Origin: Candidatus Schekmanbacteria bacterium
GTDB lineage: Bacteria; CSSED10-310; JACPHN01
Reading direction: 5' to 3'
DNA: 20,955 nucleotides
NCBI GenBank assembly: GCA_016188575.1
Contig: JACPHN010000159.1
Span: 1 to 20,955, forward strand
Numbering within the stretch: position 1 is the first letter of the stretch; each line of letters starts with the position of its first letter. Shown in pieces: positions 1,930 through 15,989 of this stretch. The notes beneath the pieces were generated by a model, which saw only the letters and a list, made by a program, of their open reading frames with translations, did no database searches and had not been told where the DNA came from. Made by a program: the position numbers and the translations under genes.

Positions 1930-3105
1930 TCAGAGGCGGCGCATGAGGCGGTCGATGCCCTCCAGCGCCCGCTGGATCGTATCGAACGAAGCGGCGTAGG
2001 CGCAGCGGACGTGCCCTTCACCGCCGGCTCCGAAGGCGCTTCCGGGAACGATCGCAACGCGCTCCTCGACGAGCAGCTTGCGGCAAAACTGGGCGCTGGT
2101 CAGGCCGGTCGACGCGATTGACGGGAAGGCGTAGAAGGCTCCGTCCGGCAGGTGGCAGGGCAGCCCAACCTCATTTAGCCCAGTGACGATCACCCTGCGC
2201 CGCTGCTCGTATTTCTCCACCATTTCGCGCATCGGCTCGCCACCGGAGCGCAGCGCCTCGAGCGCGGCGAGTTGCGACAGAATCGGGCAGCACAGCATCG
2301 AATACTGGTGAATCCGGCAGGCGGCGCGGATGAGATCGGGCGGCCCCGCGAGGTAGCCGATGCGCCAGCCGGTCATCGCCCAGGCCTTCGAAAACCCGCT
2401 GATCACCACGGTGCGTTCGCGGGCGCCTGGCAGCGCAGCCACCGAGGTGTGCGCGCCATTGTACGTGAGCTCGGCGTAAATTTCGTCGCTCAGCAAGATG
2501 AGGTCGTGTTCCTGCGCGACGTCGGCGATCGCTTGCAGGGTCGCACGATCAAAAGTCGTGCCTGTGGGATTGCTCGGGTAGTTGAGCAAGATGGCCTTGG
2601 TTTTCGCGGTGACGCGTGCGGCGAGCCGTCGCGGGTCGAGGCGAAACCCCTCGTCGAAACTCGTCTCGACGGCCACCGGAACCCCGCCGGCGAGCAGGAT
2701 CATGGGTTCGTAGGCGACATAGCACGGCGTGTGCAGGATGACCTCATCACCAGGATCGATGATGGCGCGAAGAATGAGGTCATAACCCTGGCTGCCGCCG
2801 ACGGTGGGGAGGATCTCGCAGGTCGGGTCGTAGGTGACGGAAAAACGGCGCGTCACGTAATCGGCAATGGACTCGCGCAGCTCGAGGATCCCCCAATTTG
2901 ACGTATAGGAGGTTTTTCCGTGCTCCAGCGCAAACATGGCGGACTCGCGGATCGTCCACGGGGTGACGAAATCCGGTTCGCCGACGCCGAGCGTGACCAG
3001 GTTGTCCATGGACATGACGAGGTCGAAGAACTCGCGGATCCCGGAGGGTTTGAGCCCGGCAACCACGCGCGCAACCCGGGCACGGGAAGACATGGCTTCA
3101 GTCAT
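1930..3105 (-). CDS. Class I/II pyridoxal-phosphate aminotransferase (AspC/PatA type)
   Basis: The 391-aa protein has the normal length of a fold-type I aminotransferase. Visible motifs are V-G-E-P-D-F (residues 41-46), the PLP-phosphate loop GGSQGYDL (~103), NYPSNPTGT with the conserved Asn179, SDEIYAELTY with Asp207 and Tyr210, the Schiff-base lysine in SGFSKAWAMTGWRIGY (Lys240), and the substrate-carboxylate arginine near the end (HVRCAYA, Arg367). This composition matches the aspartate/PatA-like subgroup. The true amino donor is not determined by sequence. It is the last gene of a minus-strand operon: 38 bp separate it from the Lrp-type regulator, and an amino-acid dehydrogenase lies upstream. 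It probably shuttles amino groups between an amino acid and a 2-oxo acid in the cytoplasm under control of that regulator. Confidence 0.92.
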   Translation of the reverse strand: MTEAMSSRARVARVVAGLKPSGIREFFDLVMSMDNLVTLGVGEPDFVTPWTIRESAMFALEHGKTSYTSNWGILELRESIADYVTRRFSVTYDPTCEILPTVGGSQGYDLILRAIIDPGDEVILHTPCYVAYEPMILLAGGVPVAVETSFDEGFRLDPRRLAARVTAKTKAILLNYPSNPTGTTFDRATLQAIADVAQEHDLILLSDEIYAELTYNGAHTSVAALPGARERTVVISGFSKAWAMTGWRIGYLAGPPDLIRAACRIHQYSMLCCPILSQLAALEALRSGGEPMREMVEKYEQRRRVIVTGLNEVGLPCHLPDGAFYAFPSIASTGLTSAQFCRKLLVEERVAIVPGSAFGAGGEGHVRCAYAASFDTIQRALEGIDRLMRRL

Positions 3106-3696: not shown

Positions 3697-5010
3697 TCAT
3701 GGTCCGGCGGTGCCCCAGCCATGACGGAGAAGATCATCGACGATCAGCCAACCCCGGTGCCCCCAGATCGGGTGGGGGACTTCGGCAAGCTCATCGGCGA
3801 GCATTCTGGCCTCATCGGCGGGCGTCCGACCCGAAGCACGGGCGCGCGCGAAGATTTCCAGGCAGCGCTGGAATATGCCTCCGGGAGTCGTGTGGTCGAG
3901 ATGCGCCAGGATCGCGGGATCGTCCGCCAGCGACCCGTACTGCTCGTTGGCGCAGTTGACGATACCCATGCGGTTGGCGAGAAAATCCGGAACGTAGAGG
4001 ATGGCGCGCTGGTGCAGAGCCGCGGCGTCGCGCCCGGGGTCTTCGAGCTGGTTGTTGGCGGCGCCGCAGACGATGGGGGCGGCGATGGTGGCGATCGTCC
4101 GCGGGTTCAACACCCCGCCGATCGCGCTCGGCGCGAGGATGTCGCAGGGGTCGCCGAGAATCGAAACGTCGTCGCCGGCGGCGAGACGCAGCTCCAGAGG
4201 TGCACCGGGGAAGCGCCCCCGGACCCGTGCCACGGCTTCGGCGTCGATGTCGGCAGCGACGATGCGGCCGACACGGCGCTCCAGAAGCTCGGCGATCATG
4301 TGCGTCGCCACGTTGCCCAGACCCTGCATGGCCACCGTCTTGCCGGCGACCGTCCCGGCGCCGAGGTGGCACAATGCCGCCTCCATCGCCACCACGACGC
4401 CCCTGGCCGTGAGGATGCTGGGATTGCCGCTGCCTCCGAGTCGCTGTGGGATGCAGGTGGTGAAGCGCGTCTGGGTGAAGATCTCGGCCATGTCGTCGGG
4501 GGTGGTGCCGACGTCCTCTGCGGTGATGTAACAGCCGCGCAGGCTGGCGATGAACCGGCCATAATCGCGAAAGACGGCAGCGCGCCGGCCGGGATCGCGA
4601 TAGTCCACGCCAGGAGCACGGCTGATCACGCCCTTGCCGCCGCCCCACCACAGTCCGGCGAGCGCGCACTTGTGCCCCATGCCGCGGCTCAGGCGCAGTC
4701 CGTCGCGGACGAGATGCTCCATCGTGGCGTAGCTCCAGAAACGGACGCCGCCCGCGGCCTGGCCGCGCCGGCTCTTGTGAATGAACGCGGCGAGCAGGGT
4801 CTCGCTTTCGGCGCCGATTTCAAAGAAGCAGGCCTCGTGTCGTGCATAGTCGCGAGCGTCCGCGGATATCGCTTCGGCGAGGCCCACCAGCAGGTCCCCG
4901 GCCGCGGTCAGGCGCGAGGCGCCGGGCAGGGTGTAGAGCATCGCGCGCCGCGCGCCGCCCGCGCGCAAAGTCGCCGCGAAATCGCCTGGAGATGCGTGCC
5001 ACAGGTTCAT
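3697..5010 (-). CDS. Leu/Phe/Val/Glu-type amino acid dehydrogenase
   Basis: The 437-aa protein belongs to the ELFV dehydrogenase family (oxidative deamination of an amino acid to its 2-oxo acid with NAD(P)+). The substrate-binding region has G-M-G-H-K-C-A-L-A (Lys114) and L-W-W-G-G-G-K-G-V (Lys126, the catalytic position). The 12-residue spacing between the two lysines is as in leucine dehydrogenase, where the corresponding residues are Lys68 and Lys80. TAEDVGTT (160s, Asp166) follows. The Rossmann NAD-binding domain begins at M-Q-G-L-G-N-V-A (~228-235), and A-A-N-N-Q-L lies in the C-terminal half. Loop composition is closer to Leu/Phe/Val dehydrogenases than to hexameric glutamate dehydrogenases. 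It has about 45 extra N-terminal residues compared with leucine dehydrogenase. It heads the operon that continues with the regulator and the aminotransferase. Confidence 0.9.
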   Translation of the reverse strand: MNLWHASPGDFAATLRAGGARRAMLYTLPGASRLTAAGDLLVGLAEAISADARDYARHEACFFEIGAESETLLAAFIHKSRRGQAAGGVRFWSYATMEHLVRDGLRLSRGMGHKCALAGLWWGGGKGVISRAPGVDYRDPGRRAAVFRDYGRFIASLRGCYITAEDVGTTPDDMAEIFTQTRFTTCIPQRLGGSGNPSILTARGVVVAMEAALCHLGAGTVAGKTVAMQGLGNVATHMIAELLERRVGRIVAADIDAEAVARVRGRFPGAPLELRLAAGDDVSILGDPCDILAPSAIGGVLNPRTIATIAAPIVCGAANNQLEDPGRDAAALHQRAILYVPDFLANRMGIVNCANEQYGSLADDPAILAHLDHTTPGGIFQRCLEIFARARASGRTPADEARMLADELAEVPHPIWGHRGWLIVDDLLRHGWGTAGP

Positions 5011-5129
5011 GCTGCATGTCGCTCCGGATGAGGTTGGGCGCCCGCTGCCGCGCCGAGTCGCGACGTATCGTATCGCGGCGGTGCGATTGGCGAAACGGGG
5101 CGGCTTGCCCTGAATCCGGCGAGGCCTCG

Positions 5130-5158
5130 TTGGCGCCGGCGCGGTTCGCGAGTAGACT
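5130..5158 (+). promoter_or_regulatory. Putative sigma-70 promoter of the truncated repeat copy
   Basis: TTGGCG (5130-5135) and TAGACT (5153-5158) are separated by 17 bases, about 60 bp before the ATG at 5221. The -10 hexamer and spacer lie inside the duplicated segment and are conserved at 7557-7562, which supports a function. The -35 hexamer lies just outside the duplicated segment. Confidence 0.45.
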
Positions 5159-5486
5159 GGCTACCGTCGCCGTTTCCGCGTCCGAGGTCGCGGGTCGCTT
5201 GCAGCTCGTGTCCCCAAAACATGAAGCCGAAGACTGCACCGCCAGTACCCGTACGCGAGTCGCCTCCAGCAGGACGTCGGCGCGCGCGGCGCGGTCTGGT
5301 ATTGGGCCTGTGTGCCGTCGCCGTGTTGCTCGGCGCCGGCGGGGCAGCGGGCCTGAGTCACCTGCGCCGCACCTTGCCGCGCCAGGTCGCCGAGGTGCTC
5401 GCCGGGAAGCTCGCCGACGACGCCGGCGAAGTCGGGGCGATCGACTTCGACGCAACCGGCGTCACGATCCACAAGCTGACCGCCCA
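5136..5486 (+). repeat. Direct repeat copy A (promoter, leader and N-terminal part of transglycosylase gene)
   Basis: This ~351-bp segment matches 7540-7889 in the same orientation. I counted 18 differences over the 266 coding positions, 4 substitutions over the ~85 leader positions, and one extra C before the start codon, which is about 93% identity overall. Coding and non-coding parts have diverged to a similar degree. The match ends abruptly at 5486, where a GlsB-type gene fragment begins on the other strand. The two copies flank the small-protein stress cassette. Confidence 0.92.
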
Positions 5487-5538
5487 GCATGATGAACCTT
5501 GCCAGCCGACCGGCGATCAGACGATCGGACAGAGATGA
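5221..5538 (+). pseudogene. Truncated duplicate of the AsmA-like/GT51 transglycosylase gene (N-terminus only)
   Basis: The frame begins MKPKTAPPVPVRESPPAGRR. The first ~89 residues align with the start of the full transglycosylase at 7624: basic cytoplasmic N-terminus, one membrane helix (LVLGLCAVAVLLGAGGAAGL), then EVGAIDFDATGVTIHKL. After position 5486 it runs into unrelated sequence (D-E-P-C-Q-P-T-G-D-Q) and stops at 5538, giving 105 aa. No glycosyltransferase domain is present. If translated it would be a small single-pass membrane peptide. It keeps an ATG where the full copy has GTG, and retains the -10 element. It most likely arose by segmental duplication or insertion rather than as a functional gene, but expression is possible. 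Confidence 0.8.
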
Positions 5539-5557
5539 TCCACACCAGAATGCTCAC
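5487..5557 (-). pseudogene. Fragment of a GlsB/YeaQ/YmgE-type membrane stress protein gene
   Basis: On the minus strand, GGAGG lies 9 bases before a GTG at 5557 that reads VSILVWII. After a small frame disruption, the +1 frame continues L-I-A-G-R-L-A-R-F-I-M-L-G-G. The combined pattern (S-I-L-x-W-I-I ... L-I-A-G-x-L-A-R-x-I-M-x-G) is the first half of the transglycosylase-associated GlsB/YeaQ/YmgE family, whose members are ~80-aa membrane proteins often found beside the other genes of this cassette. The similarity stops at 5487, precisely at the border of direct repeat copy A, so the second half is missing. The short length makes the call tentative. Confidence 0.5.
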
Positions 5558-5691
5558 CGCGACGAACCTCCAAGACGGAGTGGTCGAAAACCCAATGGCG
5601 GCTGACGACCACGCCCCGCAGCGGCCTTGTCGCAGCGCCGCGGCGATACTGGGGTCGGCTGGAGCACCTGGTCAGGCGGCAGGAGCAGCGG

Positions 5692-5913
5692 CTACCCCCG
5701 CTTGCCCGCAAAAAGCAGGAGCCCGCCGCCAACCACGATCGCTCCCACGCCAGCCCAGACCGGGACGTTGACCTTCTGCTTGTCCTTTACCGACAGCTCG
5801 ATCGCACCCATCTTGGCCGTGTGGGTCTCCTTGGTGTAGCTGAAACCACCATACACCAACCCAAGAATTCCGGCCAGAATCATCACGATTGCGAGAATCC
5901 TGAGCCAGCCCAT
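5692..5913 (-). CDS. DUF3185 family small membrane protein
   Basis: The 73-aa protein has an N-terminal membrane helix (LRILAIVMILAGILGLVYGGF) and a short polar middle containing YTKETHTAKMGAIELSVKDK. A second helix (V-W-A-G-V-G-A-I-V-V-G-G-G-L-L-L-F) ends in A-G-K-R-G. This two-helix layout with the T-A-K-M-G-A-I-E-L-S-V centre is how I recognise DUF3185. The biochemical function of the family is unknown. A strong AAGGAGA lies four bases before the ATG. It is the third gene of a minus-strand set of stress-type small proteins and has clearly lower G+C than the genes around the cassette. Confidence 0.82.
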   Translation of the reverse strand: MGWLRILAIVMILAGILGLVYGGFSYTKETHTAKMGAIELSVKDKQKVNVPVWAGVGAIVVGGGLLLFAGKRG

Positions 5914-5946
5914 TGTGTCTCCTTATAGTAATAGTCCGTTATGCCG

Positions 5947-6096
5947 TTACAATACCCGTCTACCCTGAATGACACGAATAACGACCACTACGACCGCAAG
6001 GACCAGAAGGACGTGAAGTAACCCGCCCATTGTGTACGACGTCACAAGACCGAGCACCCACAGTACAACCAGGACAACTACAATCGACTCTAACAT
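5947..6096 (-). CDS. lmo0937-family 49-aa membrane protein
   Basis: The translation begins MLESIVVVLVVLWVLGLVTS and continues Y-T-M-G-G-L-L-H-V-L-L-V-L-A-V-V-V-V-V-I-R-V-I-Q-G-R-R-V-L. Two very hydrophobic helices are separated by the T-M-G-G-x-x-H-x-L-L turn, which is the hallmark of the lmo0937-type (YqaE-unrelated) mini membrane proteins. These proteins have no known biochemical activity and are usually found with other general-stress genes. AAGGAG sits 8 bases upstream of the ATG. It lies 15 bp downstream of the coiled-coil gene and 33 bp upstream of the DUF3185 gene, so the three are very probably co-transcribed. Confidence 0.85.
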   Translation of the reverse strand: MLESIVVVLVVLWVLGLVTSYTMGGLLHVLLVLAVVVVVIRVIQGRRVL

Positions 6097-6111
6097 TGCT
6101 ATTCTCCTTGT

Positions 6112-6402
6112 CTAATCTTTGAACTTCGATGTGAATTCACGAACGCCAGACCTCAAGGAATCCCAAACAGATTCCGCCCCTTTCTTGACGGAGTCCCACG
6201 CGTCTTCGCTTGCCCCGGAAAGCTCTGAAAGCTTCGCCTGGCCGTCTGCGAGTCCGCGCTCAAGTGCTCCAACCTGCTCTCTCATCGCTAGTTGAGCGTC
6301 CGCCTTGGCCACTGAGGCCCTGGCCTTGAGCTTGGCGATATCCGCCTTCCACTCATCGAGCTGCGCCTGAAACTTTTCTCTGTACAACTCCTTGTCATTC
6401 AA
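6112..6402 (-). CDS. sll1863-family stress response coiled-coil protein
   Basis: The predicted 96-aa protein starts at a TTG (6402) followed by NDKELYREKFQAQLDEWK, with AGGAG 7 bases upstream. The frame runs further upstream to 6639, but that part is compositionally unlike the rest and I exclude it. The protein is a charged, alanine-rich helix (ADIAKLKARASVAKADAQ and E-Q-V-G-A-L-E-R-G-L-A-D-G-Q-A-K-L) ending in a W-D-S-V-K-K-G-A-E-S-V-W-D-S-L pattern. That pattern is typical of the sll1863-type stress response family. It has no signal peptide or membrane segment. It is the first gene of the three-gene minus-strand run ending at the DUF3185 gene. Confidence 0.8.
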   Translation of the reverse strand: MNDKELYREKFQAQLDEWKADIAKLKARASVAKADAQLAMREQVGALERGLADGQAKLSELSGASEDAWDSVKKGAESVWDSLRSGVREFTSKFKD

Positions 6403-6808
6403 TGCCTTTCTCCTTTGGTTGTGGGGTTGTGGACGTTCGGTCGGTCTTCTCTCCCGAGTGCCCGAGTCTCTCCGCATTCCTTCTATGCATTTTTCGGGCC
6501 ATCGTCTGAGAACCGCCTGGTTCCCTGATCCATGTCGAGACCAAGGGCCGGCGTGGTGGCGGGAACGATCAAAATGAATTACCAACTCCTTCAATTCGAG
6601 GGAGAGCGATGGTCGGTGCGCACCCACGATCCGAATCACGAGGAGCTCGTGGCCGTGAGCCCGAAGGCACCGCCGGGCACGGCGACCGCCGCGAGTCCTG
6701 CCGGCTGCAGATCCTGCCCGTGGCCTCCAGGTGACCGAGTATCAGGTCGAGACCCCCTACTCTGATGCTGCCCCTGTCAGCCGGCCGCAGGAATCGGTGC
6801 ACATCGAC
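6403..6808. other. Gene-poor stretch upstream of the small stress genes
   Basis: No convincing gene was found in these 406 bases. Short open frames on both strands (for example a plus-strand frame starting MNYQLLQFEGERW at 6574) match nothing I know and quickly become low-complexity. The segment should contain the promoter of the minus-strand set starting at 6402. One feature that could be an operator is the inverted repeat GAACC-GCCT-GGTTC at 6510-6523, about 110 bp upstream of the TTG start. Confidence 0.5.
6510..6523. promoter_or_regulatory. Small inverted repeat, possible operator of the stress operon
   Basis: GAACC (6510-6514) and GGTTC (6519-6523) form a perfect 5-bp inverted repeat with a 4-base spacer, ~110 bp upstream of the coiled-coil stress gene. 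It could be a regulator site or chance. Nothing else supports it. Confidence 0.25.
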
Positions 6809-6976
6809 CTATCGCTGCAGCAAGATCAATACGCCCACAGCAATTGCGAGGATGGCCCTGAGAGTATCGAGTCCCGAAAAACTGAGATTCAGCAGCGGTA
6901 CCAGTCCAGCCAAGATGAGCCAGATACCCAACAAGGGCATGCCGAGATTCTTGGGCAGACTCTTGGGCAGATTCAT
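6809..6976 (-). CDS. 55-aa double-helix membrane protein of a stress cassette
   Basis: The ATG at 6976 is preceded by AAAGGAG with 7 bases of spacing. The product reads MNLPKSLPKNLGMPLLGIWL, then I-L-A-G-L-V-P-L-L-N-L-S-F-S-G-L-D, then a second helix (AILAIAVGVLILL) and Q-R at the end. The frame continues upstream to 7174, but it crosses the palindrome at 7101-7140 and lacks sense, so the short form is the gene. Two short membrane helices joined by an L-S-F-S-G-L loop occur in many unnamed small proteins of stress-type clusters. I cannot give a family name with confidence. It lies on the same strand as the sll1863/lmo0937/DUF3185 set but is 406 bp away and probably has its own promoter. Confidence 0.72.
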   Translation of the reverse strand: MNLPKSLPKNLGMPLLGIWLILAGLVPLLNLSFSGLDTLRAILAIAVGVLILLQR

Positions 6977-7100
6977 TGAAAGGCTCCTTTCTTCGAGTGA
7001 ATTGAGGATGACGGGAAGCGAGGGATGGTACGAAATGGACCAGTCATCAGAGCTCGTTGATGGGCGCAAATGTTGGACATCGCCGCGGCCCGAGCCCCCC

Positions 7101-7140
7101 CATCCTCGCCTCCCCCCGCGTGCGGGGGGAGGCGAGGATG
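7101..7140. repeat. Perfect 40-bp palindrome (REP-like hairpin)
   Basis: The arm CATCCTCGCCTCCCCCCGC (7101-7119) and its exact reverse complement (7122-7140) are separated by GT. A 19-bp perfect stem with a 2-base loop would extrude easily as a hairpin. It is preceded by a C-run and has no T-tract, so it is not a standard terminator. Its core resembles the hairpin at 1892-1915. It may be a member of a dispersed palindromic repeat family. Confidence 0.85.
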
Positions 7141-7299
7141 GGAAGAGGAAGCGAGCACGGTGCCGAGCAAACACAATCTCCCCTGAATCCGCGGCCTCAC
7201 TGGCGCGAGGCTGCCATCATCCTTATGCCGGCGTGCTCCCGCCCGGCGAAAGTCGAGAAGGATTTGGCCGGGGTGCCGGTGGAGGGTTTTCCCGCGACT

Positions 7300-7315
7300 C
7301 GCCCCCGAGGGGGCG
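7300..7315. repeat. Short G/C hairpin
   Basis: CGCCCCC (7300-7306) pairs with GGGGGCG (7309-7315) around GA. There is no T-tract, and the role is unknown. Confidence 0.4.
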
Positions 7316-7532
7316 GTGGATTCTGAGCTGCGATAGTGCATGTTCCTGGTCCTCTTGATGGATGCCCTCATGTCCTCCAGGCGAACCGCGCTTACTAATG
7401 TTGCAAGCCGTGCGCCAGGCCTGAAGCCACAGGCCGTTCGGCATCGGGGTGACAGCTCGCAGTCGGGAGCTGTGCGCGCCGGGACGACTTCGGGTGCGCG
7501 GAGGAATGTGCGTACATCGTGCGCGCTCGCGA

Positions 7533-7562
7533 TTGCGCTCCGGCGCGGTTCGCGAGTAGACT
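7533..7562 (+). promoter_or_regulatory. Putative sigma-70 promoter of the transglycosylase gene
   Basis: TTGCGC (7533-7538) and TAGACT (7557-7562) have an 18-base spacer, about 60 bp before the GTG at 7624. The -10 region is shared with the duplicate at 5153-5158. The -35 lies outside the duplicated segment and differs between copies, so the two promoters may differ in strength. Confidence 0.45.
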
Positions 7563-7889
7563 GGCTACCGTCCCCGTTTCCGAGTCCGAGGTCGCTGGTC
7601 GCTTGCAGCTCGTATCCCAAAACGTGAAGCCGAAGACTGCACCGCCAGTACCCGCACGCGAGTCGCCTGCAGCAGGACGTCAGCGCGCGCGGCGCGGTCT
7701 GGTCTGGGGCCTGTGTGCCGTCGCCGTGTTGCTCGGCGCCGGTGGGGCCGCGGGCCTGAGCCACCTGCGCCGCACCTTGCCGCGCCAGATCGCCGAGGTG
7801 CTCGCCCAGAAGCTCGGCGGCGCCGCCGTCGAAGTCGGGGCGATCGACTTCGACGCAACCGGCGTCACGATCCACAGGCTGTCCGCCCA
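7540..7889 (+). repeat. Direct repeat copy B (within the full-length transglycosylase gene)
   Basis: This is the second, full-gene copy of the ~350-bp segment described at 5136-5486. It covers 84 bp of leader and the first ~89 codons. One base is missing in the leader relative to copy A (TATCCCAAAAC here, TGTCCCCAAAAC there). The frame upstream of the start is therefore not conserved between the copies, which supports translation starting at 7624. Confidence 0.92.
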
Positions 7890-9582
7890 CCGGCCGGAAG
7901 CGGGCGTTCAGGCGGAGCTCCGCGACCTCCGCATGGCGCTGTCCCTGTCCTCAGCGATGTCCGGAAACGGCGCTGTCGAGCGCATCTCCGTCGAGAGCGG
8001 GGAGGCCGCGCTGGCCCTTGCCCCGCTGGCATCCTGGGTGCACTCCCTGGCGGCCGAGCGACCGGGGCCGCCTCCCCACGGTGCACCCGAGTCAGGCGCG
8101 CTCACCCGCGGCGAGCTCCCGGGCATCGCCGCGCTGCTGTCGCCGCACGCGACCATCGCCGTCGAAAATCTTGTCGCGCGCGTGACCTTGCCCTCCGGCG
8201 TCGTCTCACCGTGGACCGTCGAGGCGGCGGTGCTCGATCGCCGCGGCCTCACGTCCTTTGGGTTTCGCGGCACGGCGACGGGCACCGGAGGTGGTCTGGC
8301 GCGCTATGACGTCGCTGTCGACCTCGCTCGCCGGCGCTTGACGGCGCGCGCGAGCATCGACTCGCTGCCGCTCGCAACTGTTCATCGCCTCATCCCCTCG
8401 GTCCCGAAAGCGCTCCTGGAGTCCGGCGAGCTCGATGCTACGGTGCAGCTCGACGGCGACGGCGTGTCCCCGGATGTGCGCATCCATGGCACCCTGGCGC
8501 TGCGCGATGTGGCGCTACAGGCGGGCTGGCTCGGCTCCCAGGCGCTCGCCGGACTGGCGCCGACCATCGCGGGCGATCTTACCGTCCGGCGCGCCGAAAC
8601 GCGCCTCGTCTCGGCGGCCGCCCGCATCGCTCTTGGGCGGATCGCCATCGAGATCGACGGCCGGCGACCCGCCGCGGCCGCGCCTGACGCCATCGAAGCG
8701 CGGCTCGTGGTACCGCCTACCCCCTGCGCGGCGTTGCTCGAGGACATGCCGCGGGCGCTGACCGCGCCACTTGCAGGGTTCACCCTCACGGGAAGCTTCG
8801 GCGCGCAGCTCACACTCGCGACCACGGGCGAGCCCGGCACAGAGCCCATCGTGCAAGTAACGCTCGATCAGCACTGCCGGTTCGCGGCGATCCCCTCGTG
8901 GGCCGACCCCGATCGCTTCCGCCGCCCGTTCCCGCATCACGTCTTCGCCAGCGACGGCACCATCTACTACATCCCGCGCGGTCCGGGCACGACCGGTTGG
9001 ACGCCGCTCGCCGACATCAGCCGTCCGCTCGTCACCACCGTGCTCGCCCACGAGGACGACGGTTTCTATCACCACGCCGGCATCGCCTCGTGGGGGTTGG
9101 AATCGGCGATTCTCGAGAACGTCGCGAAGCACCGCCTGCGCTTCGGGGGCAGCACGATCTCGATGCAGCTCGCCAAGAACCTGTTCCTCAATCACCGGCG
9201 CACCGTCGAGCGCAAGTTTCAGGAAGTGGTCCTGACCTGGATGCTCGAGTCCCAGATGAGCAAGGACGAGATGCTCGAGCTTTACCTGAACATCATCGAG
9301 CTTGGTCCCGACATCTACGGGATTCATCAGGCGGCGGCCTACTACTTCGGCTGCCATCCGCGGGATCTCACGCTGGTGCAGGCGGCGCTGCTGGCGACCT
9401 TCCTGCCGTCACCCCGCCGCTACCACGACGCCATGATCGCCCGCGGCGGGCTTACTCCGGCGGCGACCTCGCAAATCCGGCGGTTGCTCGGTATCATGGA
9501 GGCGCTCAAATCGATATCGCCAGTGGAGCGCGAGGCGGCACTGCAGCAGATGGAGAGCATGCGGCTCCTGCCCCTGCTGTGA
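7624..9582 (+). CDS. Membrane-anchored AsmA-like domain / GT51 peptidoglycan glycosyltransferase fusion
   Basis: The 652-aa protein has a basic cytoplasmic N-terminus, one membrane helix (LVWGLCAVAVLLGAGGAAGL, ~residues 26-45), then ~350 residues of beta-rich sequence resembling AsmA/DUF3971-type periplasmic domains (VEVGAIDFDATGVTIHRL; LESGELDATVQLDGDGVSPD). The C-terminal ~200 residues are a GT51 glycosyltransferase. H-E-D-D-G-F-Y-H-H-A-G carries the catalytic Glu477, FGGSTISMQLAKNLFL starts at 507, and E-R-K-F-Q-E has Glu534. Then comes ELYLNIIELGPDIYGIHQAA. No transpeptidase domain is present, so it should polymerise lipid II glycan without cross-linking, as monofunctional transglycosylases do. 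The start is a GTG matching the ATG of the duplicate. An in-frame ATG at 7519 is disfavoured because the leader frame is not conserved. The SbcD-like gene follows directly. Confidence 0.88.
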   Translation: MKPKTAPPVPARESPAAGRQRARRGLVWGLCAVAVLLGAGGAAGLSHLRRTLPRQIAEVLAQKLGGAAVEVGAIDFDATGVTIHRLSAHRPEAGVQAELRDLRMALSLSSAMSGNGAVERISVESGEAALALAPLASWVHSLAAERPGPPPHGAPESGALTRGELPGIAALLSPHATIAVENLVARVTLPSGVVSPWTVEAAVLDRRGLTSFGFRGTATGTGGGLARYDVAVDLARRRLTARASIDSLPLATVHRLIPSVPKALLESGELDATVQLDGDGVSPDVRIHGTLALRDVALQAGWLGSQALAGLAPTIAGDLTVRRAETRLVSAAARIALGRIAIEIDGRRPAAAAPDAIEARLVVPPTPCAALLEDMPRALTAPLAGFTLTGSFGAQLTLATTGEPGTEPIVQVTLDQHCRFAAIPSWADPDRFRRPFPHHVFASDGTIYYIPRGPGTTGWTPLADISRPLVTTVLAHEDDGFYHHAGIASWGLESAILENVAKHRLRFGGSTISMQLAKNLFLNHRRTVERKFQEVVLTWMLESQMSKDEMLELYLNIIELGPDIYGIHQAAAYYFGCHPRDLTLVQAALLATFLPSPRRYHDAMIARGGLTPAATSQIRRLLGIMEALKSISPVEREAALQQMESMRLLPLL

Positions 9583-9602
9583 CGCAGGAGAAGGCAAACG
9601 TC

Positions 9603-10925
9603 GTGACGACCCAGCTCAAGTTCCTACATGCCGCGGACATCCACCTCGATAGCCCGATGCGCGGCCTAGCGCGCTACGGCGACCTCCCGATCGAGGACAT
9701 TCGCTGCGCGTCGCGCCGGGCGTGCGAGCAGCTCGTGCAGCTCGCGATCGAGGAGGAGGCGGCGTTTGTCGTGGTCGCCGGCGATCTCTACGACGAGGAC
9801 TGGCGCGACTACAACACCGGACTTTTCCTGGTCCGGCAGATGGCGGCGCTGCGCGATGCCGGCATTCAGGTCTTCGTAGTGAAGGGAAACCACGACGCGG
9901 CGAGCCGGATCACCAAGTCGTTACGCTTGCCGGACAACGTGCGCGTGTTTGCCGAGCGCAAGCCCGAAACGATGATCCTGGAGGAGCTCGGCATCGCCAT
10001 TCACGGACAGAGCTTCGCGGCACCGCACGTGCCGGAGGATCTGTCGGCGGCCTATCCTTCCCCGCGTCCGGGGTTGCTGAACGTTGGCGTGCTTCATTCC
10101 AGTCTGGACGGGAGGCCGGGGCACGACGTCTACGCACCGTGCACGAGCGCCGGGCTGCGGGGCCGCGGTTACGACTACTGGGCGCTCGGGCACGTGCACC
10201 GCTGGGAAATCGTGGCGGCGGATCCGTGGATCGTGTTCCCCGGCAACGTGCAGGGGCGTCACGCGCGCGAAACGGGTCCGAAGGGGTGCGCGCTGGTCAC
10301 GGTAGACGATGGCCGGGTCGCCGCAGTGGAACGTCGGGAGCTGGATGTGGTGCGCTGGGCGGAGGTAGCGGTTGACAGCACGGGGTGCCGGGTGGCGACG
10401 GAGCTGCTCGACCGGGCGCAGGTGGAGATGCGGGCGGCGCTTGGCGCGGCGGGCGGCCGGCCGGTGGTCGCGCGCGTCGTGGTAACGGGGGCGAGCGCGC
10501 TGCGGGATTCGCTGGTGGTTCACGATGAAAAGTGGCGGCAGGAGCTGCGCGCGGCAGCAGCCGATGTCGGTCGTGACCGCCTGTGGATCGAGAAGGTGCG
10601 GGTGGAGGCGATGCCGGCGGCGGCGGCAGGCGATGGTCAGAGCGAGGGCGCGGCGGCCGCGGCCGAGGCGGCCGTGGGAGCAGGCGCGCCGGCACTGCGC
10701 GAGCTCCTGGCGGCGCTGTCGCAGGACGATGCGGAGGGCGACGACGAGGTGATCGCCGAGCTCGTCCAGGAGCTGGCGCCGCTGCGCAACCGGCTGCCCG
10801 CCGAGCTCGCCGGCGGCGTGGGCGCGCTCGACCTCACCAGTCCCGACCTGCTGCGGCAAACGCTTCGCGAAGCGCGCGCGCTGCTGGGCGCGGTGCTGTT
10901 TCCCGCGGAGGCGCAGGGGCGATGA
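9603..10925 (+). CDS. SbcD/YhaO-like DNA repair metallophosphoesterase
   Basis: The 440-aa protein starts MTTQLKFLHAADIHLDSPMR and shows the calcineurin-like metal-binding motifs in order: A-D-I-H (Asp12, His14), A-G-D-L-Y-D (Asp61), K-G-N-H-D (Asn96, His97), and G-H-V-H (His197, His199). The ending (~340-440) is alanine-rich and helical. This is the architecture of Mre11/SbcD-type nucleases of the YhaO subgroup, which act with an ATPase on DNA ends. I start at the GTG at 9603 (AGGAG/AAGG upstream). An in-frame GTG at 9579 that overlaps the previous stop codon is possible and would add 8 residues. The stop overlaps the ATG of the ATPase gene, so the two are translationally coupled. Confidence 0.9.
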   Translation: MTTQLKFLHAADIHLDSPMRGLARYGDLPIEDIRCASRRACEQLVQLAIEEEAAFVVVAGDLYDEDWRDYNTGLFLVRQMAALRDAGIQVFVVKGNHDAASRITKSLRLPDNVRVFAERKPETMILEELGIAIHGQSFAAPHVPEDLSAAYPSPRPGLLNVGVLHSSLDGRPGHDVYAPCTSAGLRGRGYDYWALGHVHRWEIVAADPWIVFPGNVQGRHARETGPKGCALVTVDDGRVAAVERRELDVVRWAEVAVDSTGCRVATELLDRAQVEMRAALGAAGGRPVVARVVVTGASALRDSLVVHDEKWRQELRAAAADVGRDRLWIEKVRVEAMPAAAAGDGQSEGAAAAAEAAVGAGAPALRELLAALSQDDAEGDDEVIAELVQELAPLRNRLPAELAGGVGALDLTSPDLLRQTLREARALLGAVLFPAEAQGR

Positions 10926-13900
10926 GAGTCGTCGCGCTCCACCTGATCGCCTATGGCTCGTTCACGGACCGCCGTCTGGAATTCCCGGAGCGTCTCGGCG
11001 CTGCCGATTTCCACGTCGTCTTCGGCCGCAACGAGGCAGGCAAAAGCACCGCTCTGCAGGGGCTTCGCGACCTCCTGTATGGAATCCCCGAGCGGACCAC
11101 GCTCGACTTCGTTCATGCGCGCAGCGACCTGCGGGTGGGTGGACGGCTCAGCGCCGGCGACGGCCGCGAGCTGGAGGTCGTACGGCGGCGGGGCCGGCTG
11201 CGCACCTTGCTGTCGGCCGACGACGGCTCGCCGCTGGCAGAAGAGCTGCTGTCTCCACTGCTCGGGGGGGTGCCCGCCGACGTCTTCTCGACGATGTTCG
11301 GCATTGATCATGCGGCGCTCGTGCGGGGGGGGCGCGAGCTGCTCGCACAGGGGGGGGAGCTCGGCAAGGCGCTGTTCGCCGCAGCACTCGGCGGGGGCGC
11401 GCTGCGGGAAGCGTTGGCGCTGCTGCAGCGACGCTGCGAGGAGCTGTTCGTCCCCGGTGGAAAGCGCCTGATCGGCGAGACCCTGAAGCGACTTGCCGAC
11501 CAGAAGGCGGCGCTCCGCGACGCGTCGCTGTCCGCGCACGAGTGGGTGACGCTCGACCGCCGGCGCAGGGCCGTGGAGAGCGAGATTGCCGGGCTCGACG
11601 CCGGTCGCGCCGAACGCACCGCCGAGCACGTCCGCACTGAGCGCCTGCGCGCCGCGCTGCCGCTGCTGGCGGATCGCGCGCGCGTCATCGAGCGGCTCGC
11701 GGCGCTCGCCGACGTCCGCCTGCTCCCCGAGGATTTCGGGGCACAGCGCCGGGACGCACTGCAGCGCCTCGCGGTGGCGCGCCGCGATCGGGAACGCGCG
11801 CTGGCCGACATCGAGCGGGTGCGGCGCGACCTCGCGGAGCTGTCGCCGAGCGAGCAGATCCTCGCCGCTGCGGCCGCCATCGAGGACCTGCACCAGCGCC
11901 TGAGCGCCTACACGCGCGCCCTGGCCGAGCTGCCGCGCATGCGGGGTGAGCTGGATACGCTCCGGGCCGATGCCGACCGCCTGCTGCGGTCGCTGCGCCC
12001 GGACCTGCCGGCGGAGCGGGCGGACGAAACCCTGCGACCGCTTCTGGCAGCGCGCGCCCCTCGGCTGCGGGCGCTGGTGACGGCGGCGGGGGCCATCGGC
12101 GAGAAAGAGGAGCGCGCCGGACGCTCGCTGCGCAAGGCGGAGACCGCGCTGGCGGCGGTCCGGGCGGAGCTGGAGCCGCTACCGGCGCCGGTACCGATTG
12201 CCGACCTGGAGGCGGCGCTCGAGGCGGCCGTCAAACGGGGCGACCTCGACGCGCAGCGGGCGGAGCTTGCGGTGGAGATGCACGCCGACGAGGCCGCCTG
12301 CAGCGGGGAGGTGATGCGGCTCGGCCGGTGGCCGGGAAGCTGGGCGGAGCTCGTCGCCGCGCCGCTACCGATGCGCGCCACCCTCGACCGGCACGCGCAG
12401 CTCCTCGACGAGCTCGACACCCAGCTCCGGCGTGCCGCTGAAAAGCGCGAGCGACTCGCCGAGGAGCTTGACGAAGTGGAGCGGGATCTGCTGACGCTGG
12501 AAGTAAGTGGCGCCGTGCCGTCGGAGGCCGACCTCATGGCGGCTCGCCGGCGGCGTGACGCCGCCTGGACGCTGGTGCGCGGTAGCTGGCGCGAGGGTCT
12601 TGACGCGGCGGCGGTGGCCACGGCTGCGGCGGCGAACGATCCCGACCGAGAGCTGGCGGATTCGCTGTCATTCTGGATGGGCAGGTCCGACGAGATCGCG
12701 GATCGGCTGCGGCGCGAAACTGATCGAGTGCGCCGGCGGGCGGAGCTGGCGGTGCGTCGCGACGGACTGCGGACCGCGGCGACGGCAAGTGCCGAGCAGC
12801 ACACGGCGCTCGGCGACAGGCGCGGCGCTCAGGAAGGCGCTTGGCGCGAGGAATGGCGACGGTGTGGCGTCGAACCGGCATCGCCTCGAGAAATGGCGGT
12901 CTGGCTGGACCGCGTGGAGAATTTGCGGCGCCGGGCGGAGGGTATCGACAGGGCCCGCGCCCGCCTGGGGCGCATGGCGAGCGACATTGCGGAGCACCGG
13001 ACGGCGCTGGCGAAGGAGCTCGCCGCGATGGGGGGCACGCCGCCGCCCGGCGAGGACGCGGAGCGGCTGTCGCCCTGGTTGGCGGCGGGCCGCAAGGCAC
13101 TGGCTCTGGTCAGGGAGCGCGCCGAACGGCGCCGGGGGTTGGCGCAACGCGCGGAGCAGCTTGTCGCGGACGGTGATGAGGCGCGCGTGGCGCTGGCGGA
13201 CGCGCTCGCCGAGAAAGAGCGCTGGAGTCGCGATTGGTCCGCGGCAGTGGTGCCGCTCGGACTCGGCCCGGACGCGCATCCCGCCGAGGCCGAGGATGCG
13301 GTGGCGCGGCTCGGCGCGTTCTTCGCAAGACGGGACGAGGCGGCGCGACTGGGAGCCGCCTGCGCCGCCGCCGAGCGGGAGGCCGCGGCCTTCGAACGCG
13401 ATGCTATGGAAATCGTCGTGCGCACGGCGCCCGAGCTCGCGACCGGACCGGTTCAGGTCGCCGCCGCGGCGCTGTACGAGCGCTTCGGGCGCGAAAAGGA
13501 TGCCGCCACGAGGCGGCGGGCGCTGCAAGACGAGCTGCGGCGACACGAAAAGTCACTGGCCCAATCCGCGGCGGCACACGCGGACGCCGAACGGCGGCTC
13601 GCCGACCTCGGCCGCATCGCAGGCTGCGACGACGTCGCGGAGCTCGAGGAAAAGGACGCGCGCTCCAACGAGGTGCGGGCGCTGCGGCGCGAGCGCGAGC
13701 GCCTCGAGTCCCAGCTTGCGACGGCGACGGGAGAGGCCGACCTCGAGGCCACCGCGGCCCGCGCTCTCGGCACTGACGAAGCGGTCCTCGCGGCGCGCTC
13801 ACAGGGGCTGACCACCGAGCTCGAGTCGCTCGACGCGCAGCGCGACGCTCTGCATCGCGAGCACGGCGAGCTGCGGGGGCGACTCGCCACCATGGCCGGA

Positions 13901-14452
13901 CAGGCAACCGCGGCGGCGATTGCGGAAGATTGCCAGGAGACCCTCGCCGTGCTCGAGGAGCAGGTCACGGCGTATTTCCGCGCGCGCGCCGCGCTGCTCT
14001 TGCTGCGGCGCGAGATCGAGCGGGTGCGGAAGTCGAGCCAGACCCCGCTGGTGCGGCGCGCCGGGGAGCTGTTCCGGCAGCTCACGCTCGGATCGATCGG
14101 TGGGCTCGGCATCGGCTATGACGCGAAGGAAGAGCCGATTCTCGTCGGCCTGCGGGCGGGCGACCGGTCGGTCACCGTCGAGCAGATGAGCGACGGAACC
14201 CGCGACCAGCTCTTCCTGTCCCTGCGGCTCGCGACGCTCGAACAGCTCGCCACGACCGGCAAGACGCTGCCGCTGATCGTGGACGACATTCTCGTCAACT
14301 TCGACGACGAGCGCACCGCCGCGGCGCTCGGCGTGCTCGCCGACATCGCGTGCCACACGCAGGTGATCCTGTTCACCCACCACGGGCGGATACCGGAGCT
14401 CGGCGGCCGCCTCGAGGCCGCACGAGCACCGGTGGTGCAGAGCCTGGCATAG
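10922..14452 (+). CDS. SbcC/YhaN-like AAA ATPase with long coiled coil
   Basis: The 1176-aa protein begins MRVVALHLIAYGSFTDRRLE. The Walker A motif is GRNEAGKST (35-43, Lys41), followed by an L-R-D-L-L-Y-G-I-P lobe. About 900 residues of charged, alanine/arginine/glutamate-rich helix form coiled coils. The C-terminal ATPase half has the ABC-type signature M-S-D-G-T-R-D-Q (1089-1096) and Walker B L-I-V-D-D-I-L-V-N-F-D (Asp1121/Asp1122). This is the Rad50/SbcC arrangement in the YhaN subgroup, and the partner nuclease is the overlapping upstream gene. Inferred role: ATP-driven opening of DNA ends for the nuclease. No CXXC zinc hook is seen in the middle. Three poly-G tracts (7, 8 and 8 bases) occur at 11264-11357 without breaking the frame. 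Confidence 0.9.
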   Translation: MRVVALHLIAYGSFTDRRLEFPERLGAADFHVVFGRNEAGKSTALQGLRDLLYGIPERTTLDFVHARSDLRVGGRLSAGDGRELEVVRRRGRLRTLLSADDGSPLAEELLSPLLGGVPADVFSTMFGIDHAALVRGGRELLAQGGELGKALFAAALGGGALREALALLQRRCEELFVPGGKRLIGETLKRLADQKAALRDASLSAHEWVTLDRRRRAVESEIAGLDAGRAERTAEHVRTERLRAALPLLADRARVIERLAALADVRLLPEDFGAQRRDALQRLAVARRDRERALADIERVRRDLAELSPSEQILAAAAAIEDLHQRLSAYTRALAELPRMRGELDTLRADADRLLRSLRPDLPAERADETLRPLLAARAPRLRALVTAAGAIGEKEERAGRSLRKAETALAAVRAELEPLPAPVPIADLEAALEAAVKRGDLDAQRAELAVEMHADEAACSGEVMRLGRWPGSWAELVAAPLPMRATLDRHAQLLDELDTQLRRAAEKRERLAEELDEVERDLLTLEVSGAVPSEADLMAARRRRDAAWTLVRGSWREGLDAAAVATAAAANDPDRELADSLSFWMGRSDEIADRLRRETDRVRRRAELAVRRDGLRTAATASAEQHTALGDRRGAQEGAWREEWRRCGVEPASPREMAVWLDRVENLRRRAEGIDRARARLGRMASDIAEHRTALAKELAAMGGTPPPGEDAERLSPWLAAGRKALALVRERAERRRGLAQRAEQLVADGDEARVALADALAEKERWSRDWSAAVVPLGLGPDAHPAEAEDAVARLGAFFARRDEAARLGAACAAAEREAAAFERDAMEIVVRTAPELATGPVQVAAAALYERFGREKDAATRRRALQDELRRHEKSLAQSAAAHADAERRLADLGRIAGCDDVAELEEKDARSNEVRALRRERERLESQLATATGEADLEATAARALGTDEAVLAARSQGLTTELESLDAQRDALHREHGELRGRLATMAGQATAAAIAEDCQETLAVLEEQVTAYFRARAALLLLRREIERVRKSSQTPLVRRAGELFRQLTLGSIGGLGIGYDAKEEPILVGLRAGDRSVTVEQMSDGTRDQLFLSLRLATLEQLATTGKTLPLIVDDILVNFDDERTAAALGVLADIACHTQVILFTHHGRIPELGGRLEAARAPVVQSLA

Positions 14453-14550
14453 GCCCGAGGAGTGGATGCAGGCGAGGTTGGGCTGCACAGCGGCATGTCG
14501 GCAACGCCGTCACGACGATGCGGATCGAGTCGACGCCGGCTCGCGAACCC

Positions 14551-14567
14551 CCTCGCCCGCGGCGAGG
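14551..14567. terminator. Hairpin downstream of the ATPase gene (weak terminator candidate)
   Basis: CCTCGCC (14551-14557), loop CGC and GGCGAGG (14561-14567) form a perfect 7-bp stem about 100 bp after the ATPase stop codon. There is no T-tract, so intrinsic termination is doubtful. Confidence 0.3.
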
Positions 14568-14696
14568 TATCGCCGCACCCTGGCGCGCAGCGACGCGTCC
14601 CGCCAGGCGCTGTGAACGAGGCCGCGGTCTACCTTGAAGGAAATCTTAGGCGGGCTGGTGAATCTAGGCGCGCTCGCCCTCAAGCCAGGGAGGCGA

Positions 14697-14726
14697 TTGA
14701 CAGCCTTCTCACGCCAGCCATAGAAG
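14697..14726 (+). promoter_or_regulatory. Putative sigma-70 promoter of the lipoprotein gene
   Basis: A perfect TTGACA (14697-14702) is followed after 18 bases by TAGAAG (14721-14726), or after 16 bases by CATAGA. Transcription would begin near 14733, immediately before the first possible ATG at 14736. This supports the later start at 14811, which has a signal peptide and a normal leader. Confidence 0.5.
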
Positions 14727-14810
14727 ATCGGCCCTATGATGGAGCGGCAGGCGATCCAGAGATCGAGACGCCGATGCCGCCGGGCGCAGGCGGAACGATG
14801 GGGAAGGGCG

Positions 14811-15989
14811 ATGGCGCACGGTTTTGCCGCCGCGGTGCTGCTTACGTCTTGCCTTTCGATGCTGGCTGGCTGCGAGGGAGACGATCCGCCCGCCGGATTT
14901 GGCGCCAGTGTCGAGGTTCCCTCGCTGTGTTGCATCAATGACTCGCTGCAGCTCGCCGCCAGCGACGAGGACCGCGCGTACTTCGCGTGGTACCACTATA
15001 TTCGCTACACCGGTGTGCCCCGGCTGTCCCGCACCGATGATCGGCACGCGTTTGTCGAGCTGGACTCCCTCCCCGCTGGCCTCGATGGCAGGCCGCTGCA
15101 ACTTCTCGATCTCGGAGACGAGGGGCTCGCCGCGCTCTGGGCGGATGCGCCCGCCAGCGAGTGCCAGCCTTACTGTTATCGCCATGAGACGCGAATGGCG
15201 GTGAGCCACGACGGCGGAGTGTCTTTCGGGGGACCCATCGGCGTTGCCCCGCCAGGCAGCAGCGGGGGCAACATCGCGCAGCTCGGCCCGGAAAGCTGGG
15301 TGGCCGCCTATGAATTGGAGGGGGACGTTTACTTTCGCCGCAGCATTGCCGAAGGGCTAGCCTTTGATAACCCCCTGCTCGTGGCCACCGGTGCCGACCC
15401 CTTGGTTCTTCCGGTTGCGATCGACGAGGTGGACGTGGCCTACTCTGCCGGTCCGCCGGGTGCGCGCCAGGTTGCGATCGCCCGCTTGAGCGTCGGGGAG
15501 TCGCGCGCCGTCGTGAGGGGACGGCAGACAGGGCACTGCGGCACCGGCGAGCAGCGGCTGAGCGACGCGAAAGTGACCCGAGCGGGTGGTCTGGCACTGG
15601 TCTGGCAGCAGCGAGAGAAGTCGAGCTCCGCAAGCCGCATTTACTACGCCTTGCGGCCGGACCGGACCAGCCCGCTTGGACCGTGCGCGCTCGTGAATGG
15701 CTCGGTTGCTACCACCGAGGAGATCGACGCCCGCATGGCGCTGACGCCGCGCGCGGACCTCGTGATTGCCTTCACCGACGCGGGCAGCGCCGAGGACCCT
15801 CAGGACAGCCGCATCTACTATGCGCTCCTGCCTGCGGGTGCCAGTGCCTTCGATGCCCCCCTGCGTCTCGACGACACCGCCGGTCAGACCCGCGGCAGTG
15901 TCCAACTGGCCAACGGCGCCAACGAGTCCATTCACGCCGTCTGGTTCACCACCAATCCGCGCTACGCTTTCGCGGATCACTTGCGGTAA
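14811..15989 (+). CDS. Lipoprotein with sialidase-type beta-propeller features
   Basis: From the ATG at 14811 the 392-aa protein has a clear lipoprotein signal (MAHGFAAAVLLTSCLSMLAG, then Cys21). The residue after the cysteine is Glu, so inner-membrane retention is not indicated and the outer membrane is likely. GGAAGGG lies just upstream. The body is beta-rich with repeated Y-Y-A-L strands (R-I-Y-Y-A-L twice, ~80 residues apart), a Y-F-A-W strand, and one Asp-box S-H-D-G-G-V-S-F-G (132-140). This is typical of sialidase-superfamily propellers that bind or hydrolyse glycans. No catalytic arginine triad is recognisable, so an enzyme activity cannot be claimed. The frame is open to 14736, but that part is arginine-rich and lacks sense. 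The gene is unlinked to the ATPase gene by operon logic. Confidence 0.72.
   Translation: MAHGFAAAVLLTSCLSMLAGCEGDDPPAGFGASVEVPSLCCINDSLQLAASDEDRAYFAWYHYIRYTGVPRLSRTDDRHAFVELDSLPAGLDGRPLQLLDLGDEGLAALWADAPASECQPYCYRHETRMAVSHDGGVSFGGPIGVAPPGSSGGNIAQLGPESWVAAYELEGDVYFRRSIAEGLAFDNPLLVATGADPLVLPVAIDEVDVAYSAGPPGARQVAIARLSVGESRAVVRGRQTGHCGTGEQRLSDAKVTRAGGLALVWQQREKSSSASRIYYALRPDRTSPLGPCALVNGSVATTEEIDARMALTPRADLVIAFTDAGSAEDPQDSRIYYALLPAGASAFDAPLRLDDTAGQTRGSVQLANGANESIHAVWFTTNPRYAFADHLR

Follow-up and report, generated by a model that had tools for sequence, protein, structure and literature searches.

A foreign-like block of small stress-protein genes between two direct copies of a transglycosylase gene 5′ end: a candidate single-crossover insertion

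The window analysed here, one whole contig of 20,955 bp from a 275-contig, 9.2-Mb draft genome, carries a block of small stress-protein genes of foreign-like composition set between two direct copies of the 5′ end of a peptidoglycan transglycosylase gene. Copy A (positions 5130–5487, plus strand) and copy B (positions 7533–7890, plus strand) align over 358 columns with ~93% identity, and each comprises the promoter, the leader and the first ~89 codons of a DUF748-like/GT51 transglycosylase gene. Copy B is the opening of the intact 652-codon gene, and copy A is a truncated stub lying upstream. We favour, at roughly an even chance, the explanation that the foreign block was integrated as a small circularised fragment through one crossover in the transglycosylase 5′ end (Campbell-type integration). 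The locus is probably an ordinary product of recombination-based insertion in nature, though unusually easy to read, and not a new kind of mobile element. It provides a readable natural scar of short foreign DNA joining a chromosome without an integrase while the target gene is spared.

The match between the two copies is far beyond chance (E 5e-151, pairwise search within the contig). The alignment contains two 1-nt gaps, neither within the reading frame, and the longest exact match between the copies is 47 bp. Homology ends sharply at both limits of the repeat, with no residual similarity in the flanking sequence. The GC content of the repeats is 0.70–0.71, and that of the contig 0.68. The two copies are the sole repeat pair of this kind within the contig, and a search for a third copy across the 9.2-Mb genome found none. 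An earlier note on this DNA had placed a ~93% direct repeat at 5136–5486 and 7540–7889; the repeat is real and unique in the genome, with slightly wider limits that bring it to 358 bp.

The intact transglycosylase gene (positions 7624–9582, plus strand) encodes a protein of 652 aa with a GT51 Transgly domain (PF00912) scoring 165 bits against a Pfam cut-off of 27, and containing the catalytic-type motif HEDDGFYHH. The N-terminus scored 31 bits against a Pfam cut-off of 50 for DUF748/AsmA-like domains, and is a resemblance only. No match to the full transglycosylase was found in 84,980 species genomes and viral contigs; comparison with seven genomes of the same phylum showed the GT51 domain alone in common, and none of the seven has the full gene. 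The resident neighbour upstream is a divergently oriented gene (positions 3697–5010, minus strand) for a Glu/Leu/Phe/Val-type (ScyB-like) dehydrogenase (PF02812/PF00208), which scored 211 bits against NF035922, under the cut-off of that model. Downstream of the transglycosylase, the region 8898–14452 holds genes for a metallophosphatase and, after it, an AAA_27 ATPase, which we take to be an SbcD/YhaO- and YhaN-like pair.

The 2045-bp insert between the copies (positions 5488–7532) shares no sequence similarity with its flanks and is unlike them in composition, with a GC content of ~0.53–0.65; its genes (~0.53–0.55) fall below both the repeats and the contig. Four recognisable small genes are present, all on the minus strand. 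The first (positions 5692–5913) encodes a 73-aa two-helix membrane protein with relatives in many phyla that belongs to no Pfam or NCBIfam family; in particular, Pfam gave no match to DUF3185. It is followed by a gene for a 49-aa lmo0937-family membrane protein (positions 5947–6096; DUF5670), with 56.3 bits against NF033488 (cut-off 30), and by a gene for a 96-aa sll1863-family stress response protein (positions 6112–6402), with 100.8 bits against NF052504 (cut-off 35) and present in single copy in the genome. The fourth gene (positions 6809–6976) encodes a hydrophobic small protein of 55 aa with a membrane-like sequence and no confident Pfam or NCBIfam match. The lower GC content of the insert, together with the lmo0937- and sll1863-family genes aboard, supports a foreign origin. 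The description of the interval as holding only small stress and envelope genes applies to these four minus-strand genes and does not extend to more than half of its length, which has no recognisable gene. At positions 7099–7142 lies a GC-rich, REP-like palindrome of 44 bp, 95% self-complementary, which is probably a REP-like element or a member of a terminator family. Since it has dozens of relatives genome-wide, this part of the insert would be either home-grown or colonised after arrival.

Searches for mobility functions gave consistently negative results. Among insert ORFs of at least ~60 aa, Pfam and PHROGs revealed no integrase, transposase or phage protein; no tRNA and no RNA families were found in the window; and the two ends of the insert do not form inverted repeats. 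Comparison of the insert with phages gave no match, and comparison with plasmids a single one of 155 bp, at the region of the 73-aa gene.

The state of the two copies bears on their history. Copy A remains in frame for 89–92 codons and continues into the insert, where the frame closes to give a 105-aa ORF (positions 5221–5538, plus strand) with 83% protein identity to residues 1–92 of the full gene; this stub is probably a pseudogene. Over 88 codons, the copies differ by 14 replacement and 4 silent changes (pN 0.075, pS 0.053), so skewed a count that evolution of both copies as working alleles with ω ≤ 0.3 is rejected (P = 0.003). The copies thus show no sign of purifying selection, and the differences would mostly have arisen after the duplication in an unconstrained copy, which should be the truncated copy A. 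The clustering of 7 of the 20 coding differences in codons 62–69 may reflect one event, which weakens this argument. The pattern would be better explained by decay of a stub after the duplication than by a donor allele acquired from a relative, and the proposal of a relative as the source of the second copy is accordingly disfavoured. Given the 47-bp identical run, recombination between A and B would be possible in principle; it would delete 2403 bp and restore a single intact gene.

Under the favoured explanation, the incoming fragment would have consisted of the stress-gene block adjoining 358 bp of transglycosylase promoter and N-terminus. Its ends would have been joined to form a circle, which would then have integrated via one RecA-type crossover inside the 358-bp stretch. 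The product would be two direct copies with the same limits: copy A, truncated and adjacent to the original upstream gene, and copy B, continuous with the remainder of the gene, so that the transglycosylase remains whole and keeps its own promoter. Copy A would afterwards have decayed as a stub. The arrangement observed has host repeats in register at both ends of the insert, each joined to one side of the old locus. The equal limits of A and B, and the continuity of each with one side of that locus, support a single crossover. In E. coli lacZ experiments with linearised small plasmids carrying one stretch of homology, duplication of part of the gene, as opposed to deletion, was seen in 56 of 60 recombinants; the 14 recombinants sequenced had duplications of 109–950 bp, attributed to recircularisation and a single crossover (PMC3240628). 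The present locus resembles those products (PMC3240628) in having foreign DNA between direct repeats of a host gene, with one flank truncated and the other continuous with the gene, and differs in being natural and old (7% divergence), with a donor circle that we infer.

The same geometry was found at two further loci, in bacteria unrelated to this one. In Deltaproteobacterium RBG_13_61_14 (G047), the 5′ end of a response-regulator gene, with the DNA preceding it, is present as two direct repeats of 372 bp (94% identity); one continues into the complete gene, the other is truncated, and the pair is unique in the genome. The 5.1-kb block between them carries the 73-aa gene, the lmo0937 gene and a fragment of an IS4-type transposase. 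Pseudomonas sp. sp1636 (G290) has the 73-aa and lmo0937 genes in a block bordered on one side by a complete glutathione S-transferase gene and on the other by a second copy of that gene (95%) truncated at its 5′ end. The duplicated segment spans nt ~56–594 of that gene, and the right copy has lost its middle. A relative, Pseudomonas G372, is collinear at 85–90% to the left and to the right and carries there one glutathione S-transferase gene without interruption, which constitutes an empty site. With four outgroups, six of the seven polarised differences between the sp1636 copies are derived in the truncated copy, two of these six calls resting on an outgroup majority. For the insertable module proposed in the earlier note, the sp1636 layout with its empty site in G372 is a supporting parallel. 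Since the footprint in Pseudomonas, with empty site and polarised decay, occurs outside draft metagenomes, the route becomes testable. Across the genus Pseudomonas, 10 of 398 species have the 73-aa gene, which lies at several distinct places in the chromosome, and the other cassette sites showed no cassette-spanning host-gene repeats of comparable identity.

The strongest competitor of a single crossover, with a smaller but real chance of being correct, is break repair or template switching, in which a staggered break or a fork switch would capture the block and the refilling or re-copying of 358 bp would duplicate the target, with no need for homology between the block and the gene. A staggered-break or template-switch insertion leaves an identical footprint, which counts against the single crossover as the exclusive reading of the geometry. 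It would also produce copies identical at birth, in keeping with the lack of purifying selection here and with the decayed state of the truncated Pseudomonas copy. Against it, hundreds of base pairs are long for a staggered break, and published bacterial duplications of such size have been ascribed to single crossovers (PMC3240628). An unlikely alternative is that the block came from a related strain, where it already lay upstream of the gene, by homology-facilitated illegitimate recombination, so that copy B would be the donor allele. This is a known bacterial route, proposed for the orphan immunity genes of Vibrio (PMC5361080); it should produce a comparable scar and explains why a promoter and gene start lie at the cassette edge. 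However, its usual outcome is deletion and not duplication (PMC3240628), and between two functional alleles most differences should be silent, which is not the case for A and B.

We regard an assembly artefact, in which a metagenome bin had joined two strain variants, as quite improbable. A draft in 275 contigs, of which the window is one (20.9 kb), and a palindrome in the insert that is repeated many times in the genome both leave room for a misjoin; on the other side, there is no N run at the locus, the longest exact match between the copies is just 47 bp, the bin contains no alternative contig, and the same layout stands on a 165-kb Pseudomonas contig (the sp1636 locus) whose record is not labelled as a metagenome assembly. 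Least probable, by a narrow step, is an active mobile element or genomic island that would target gene 5′ ends and restore the promoter and N-terminus. The layout is like that of islands that rebuild their target gene, and three similar loci exist in unrelated bacteria. Nevertheless, neither the integrase, tRNA and short att repeat of an integrase-mediated island nor the transposase and terminal inverted repeats of a transposon or insertion sequence were found, and the long repeats are 358 bp of host-gene sequence and not att sites. Moreover, the three loci have unrelated targets, share only two to three passengers and do not significantly exceed the background rate. The earlier suggestion of an insertable module that rebuilds its host gene therefore holds insofar as a foreign block lies between duplicated 5′ ends, with the promoter and N-terminus rebuilt downstream, and fails as regards an island-like mobile element.

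Similar outcomes are known from other systems. SXT-type integrative elements enter gene 5′ ends and resupply the promoter and N-terminus, and the present locus likewise has a target gene intact behind a rebuilt promoter and start; in contrast to those elements, the insert has no integrase, short att sites, conjugation genes or phage genes. Orphan immunity-gene arrays and orphan Rhs ends (PMC5361080) share with it a module anchored by a homologous gene end and a partial gene copy left behind, although the displaced part in those cases is the 3′ end of a toxin gene, whereas the duplicated part at this locus is the 5′ end of a gene of housekeeping type. Other lmo0937 (NF033488) and sll1863 (NF052504) clusters contain the same families, often adjoining the 73-aa gene in many phyla, but are usually not flanked by host-gene repeats.

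Relatives of the 73-aa gene were collected from 80 named loci (50–76% identity) distributed patchily over many phyla, including Proteobacteria, Desulfobacterota, Acidobacteria and Gemmatimonadetes; none was found in viral contigs. The lmo0937 gene lies nearby in 36 of the 80 loci and the sll1863 gene in 7, and in genome G010 the 73-aa, lmo0937 and sll1863 genes occur in the same order and direction as in the insert. Direct repeats of at least 100 bp and at least 90% identity spanned the 73-aa gene in 2 of 54 loci and the centre in 0 of 68 control stretches, a difference that is not significant; the controls amounted to 1.35 Mb and held one such repeat pair elsewhere, off centre. The present locus was left out of this count because it had been chosen for its repeat. 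The association between repeats and stress genes is suggestive and not significant, and the lack of a significant excess of flanking repeats around these genes also speaks against the single crossover. It appears doubtful that the 73-aa/lmo0937 block is a recurrent enzyme-less passenger that would pick up a local gene fragment and integrate through it, the broken and whole target copies marking its ends. Should the pattern recur around these stress genes, it would explain their spread over many phyla without mobility genes of their own.

Two candidate loci were set aside. In Gemmatimonadetes L132, a GT51 gene lies near the 73-aa gene, but the enzyme is short and monofunctional and a NUDIX-like gene stands in between, so the arrangement is not the same. 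The repeat beside the 73-aa gene in Gallionellaceae L231 was left out of the count because it is intergenic, lies beside other local repeats and does not flank the gene.

Some further features of these neighbourhoods were observed. In two Gemmatimonadetes loci, L118 (positions 2245–3029) and L120 (positions 999–1897), the 73-aa gene is tandemly duplicated around the lmo0937 gene. At L038 (positions 4116–5117), an IS4-type transposase frame (DUF4372 and DDE) runs antisense through the 3′ part of the 73-aa gene. A 56-bp segment in the decayed transferase copy of L137 (positions 5495–5550) recurs with 84–91% identity in other Pseudomonas genomes and is probably an insertion-sequence scar. In Methylotuvimicrobium buryatense (L248, positions 9608–15259), several short direct repeats of 100–135 bp lie near the cassette and perhaps represent a MITE family.
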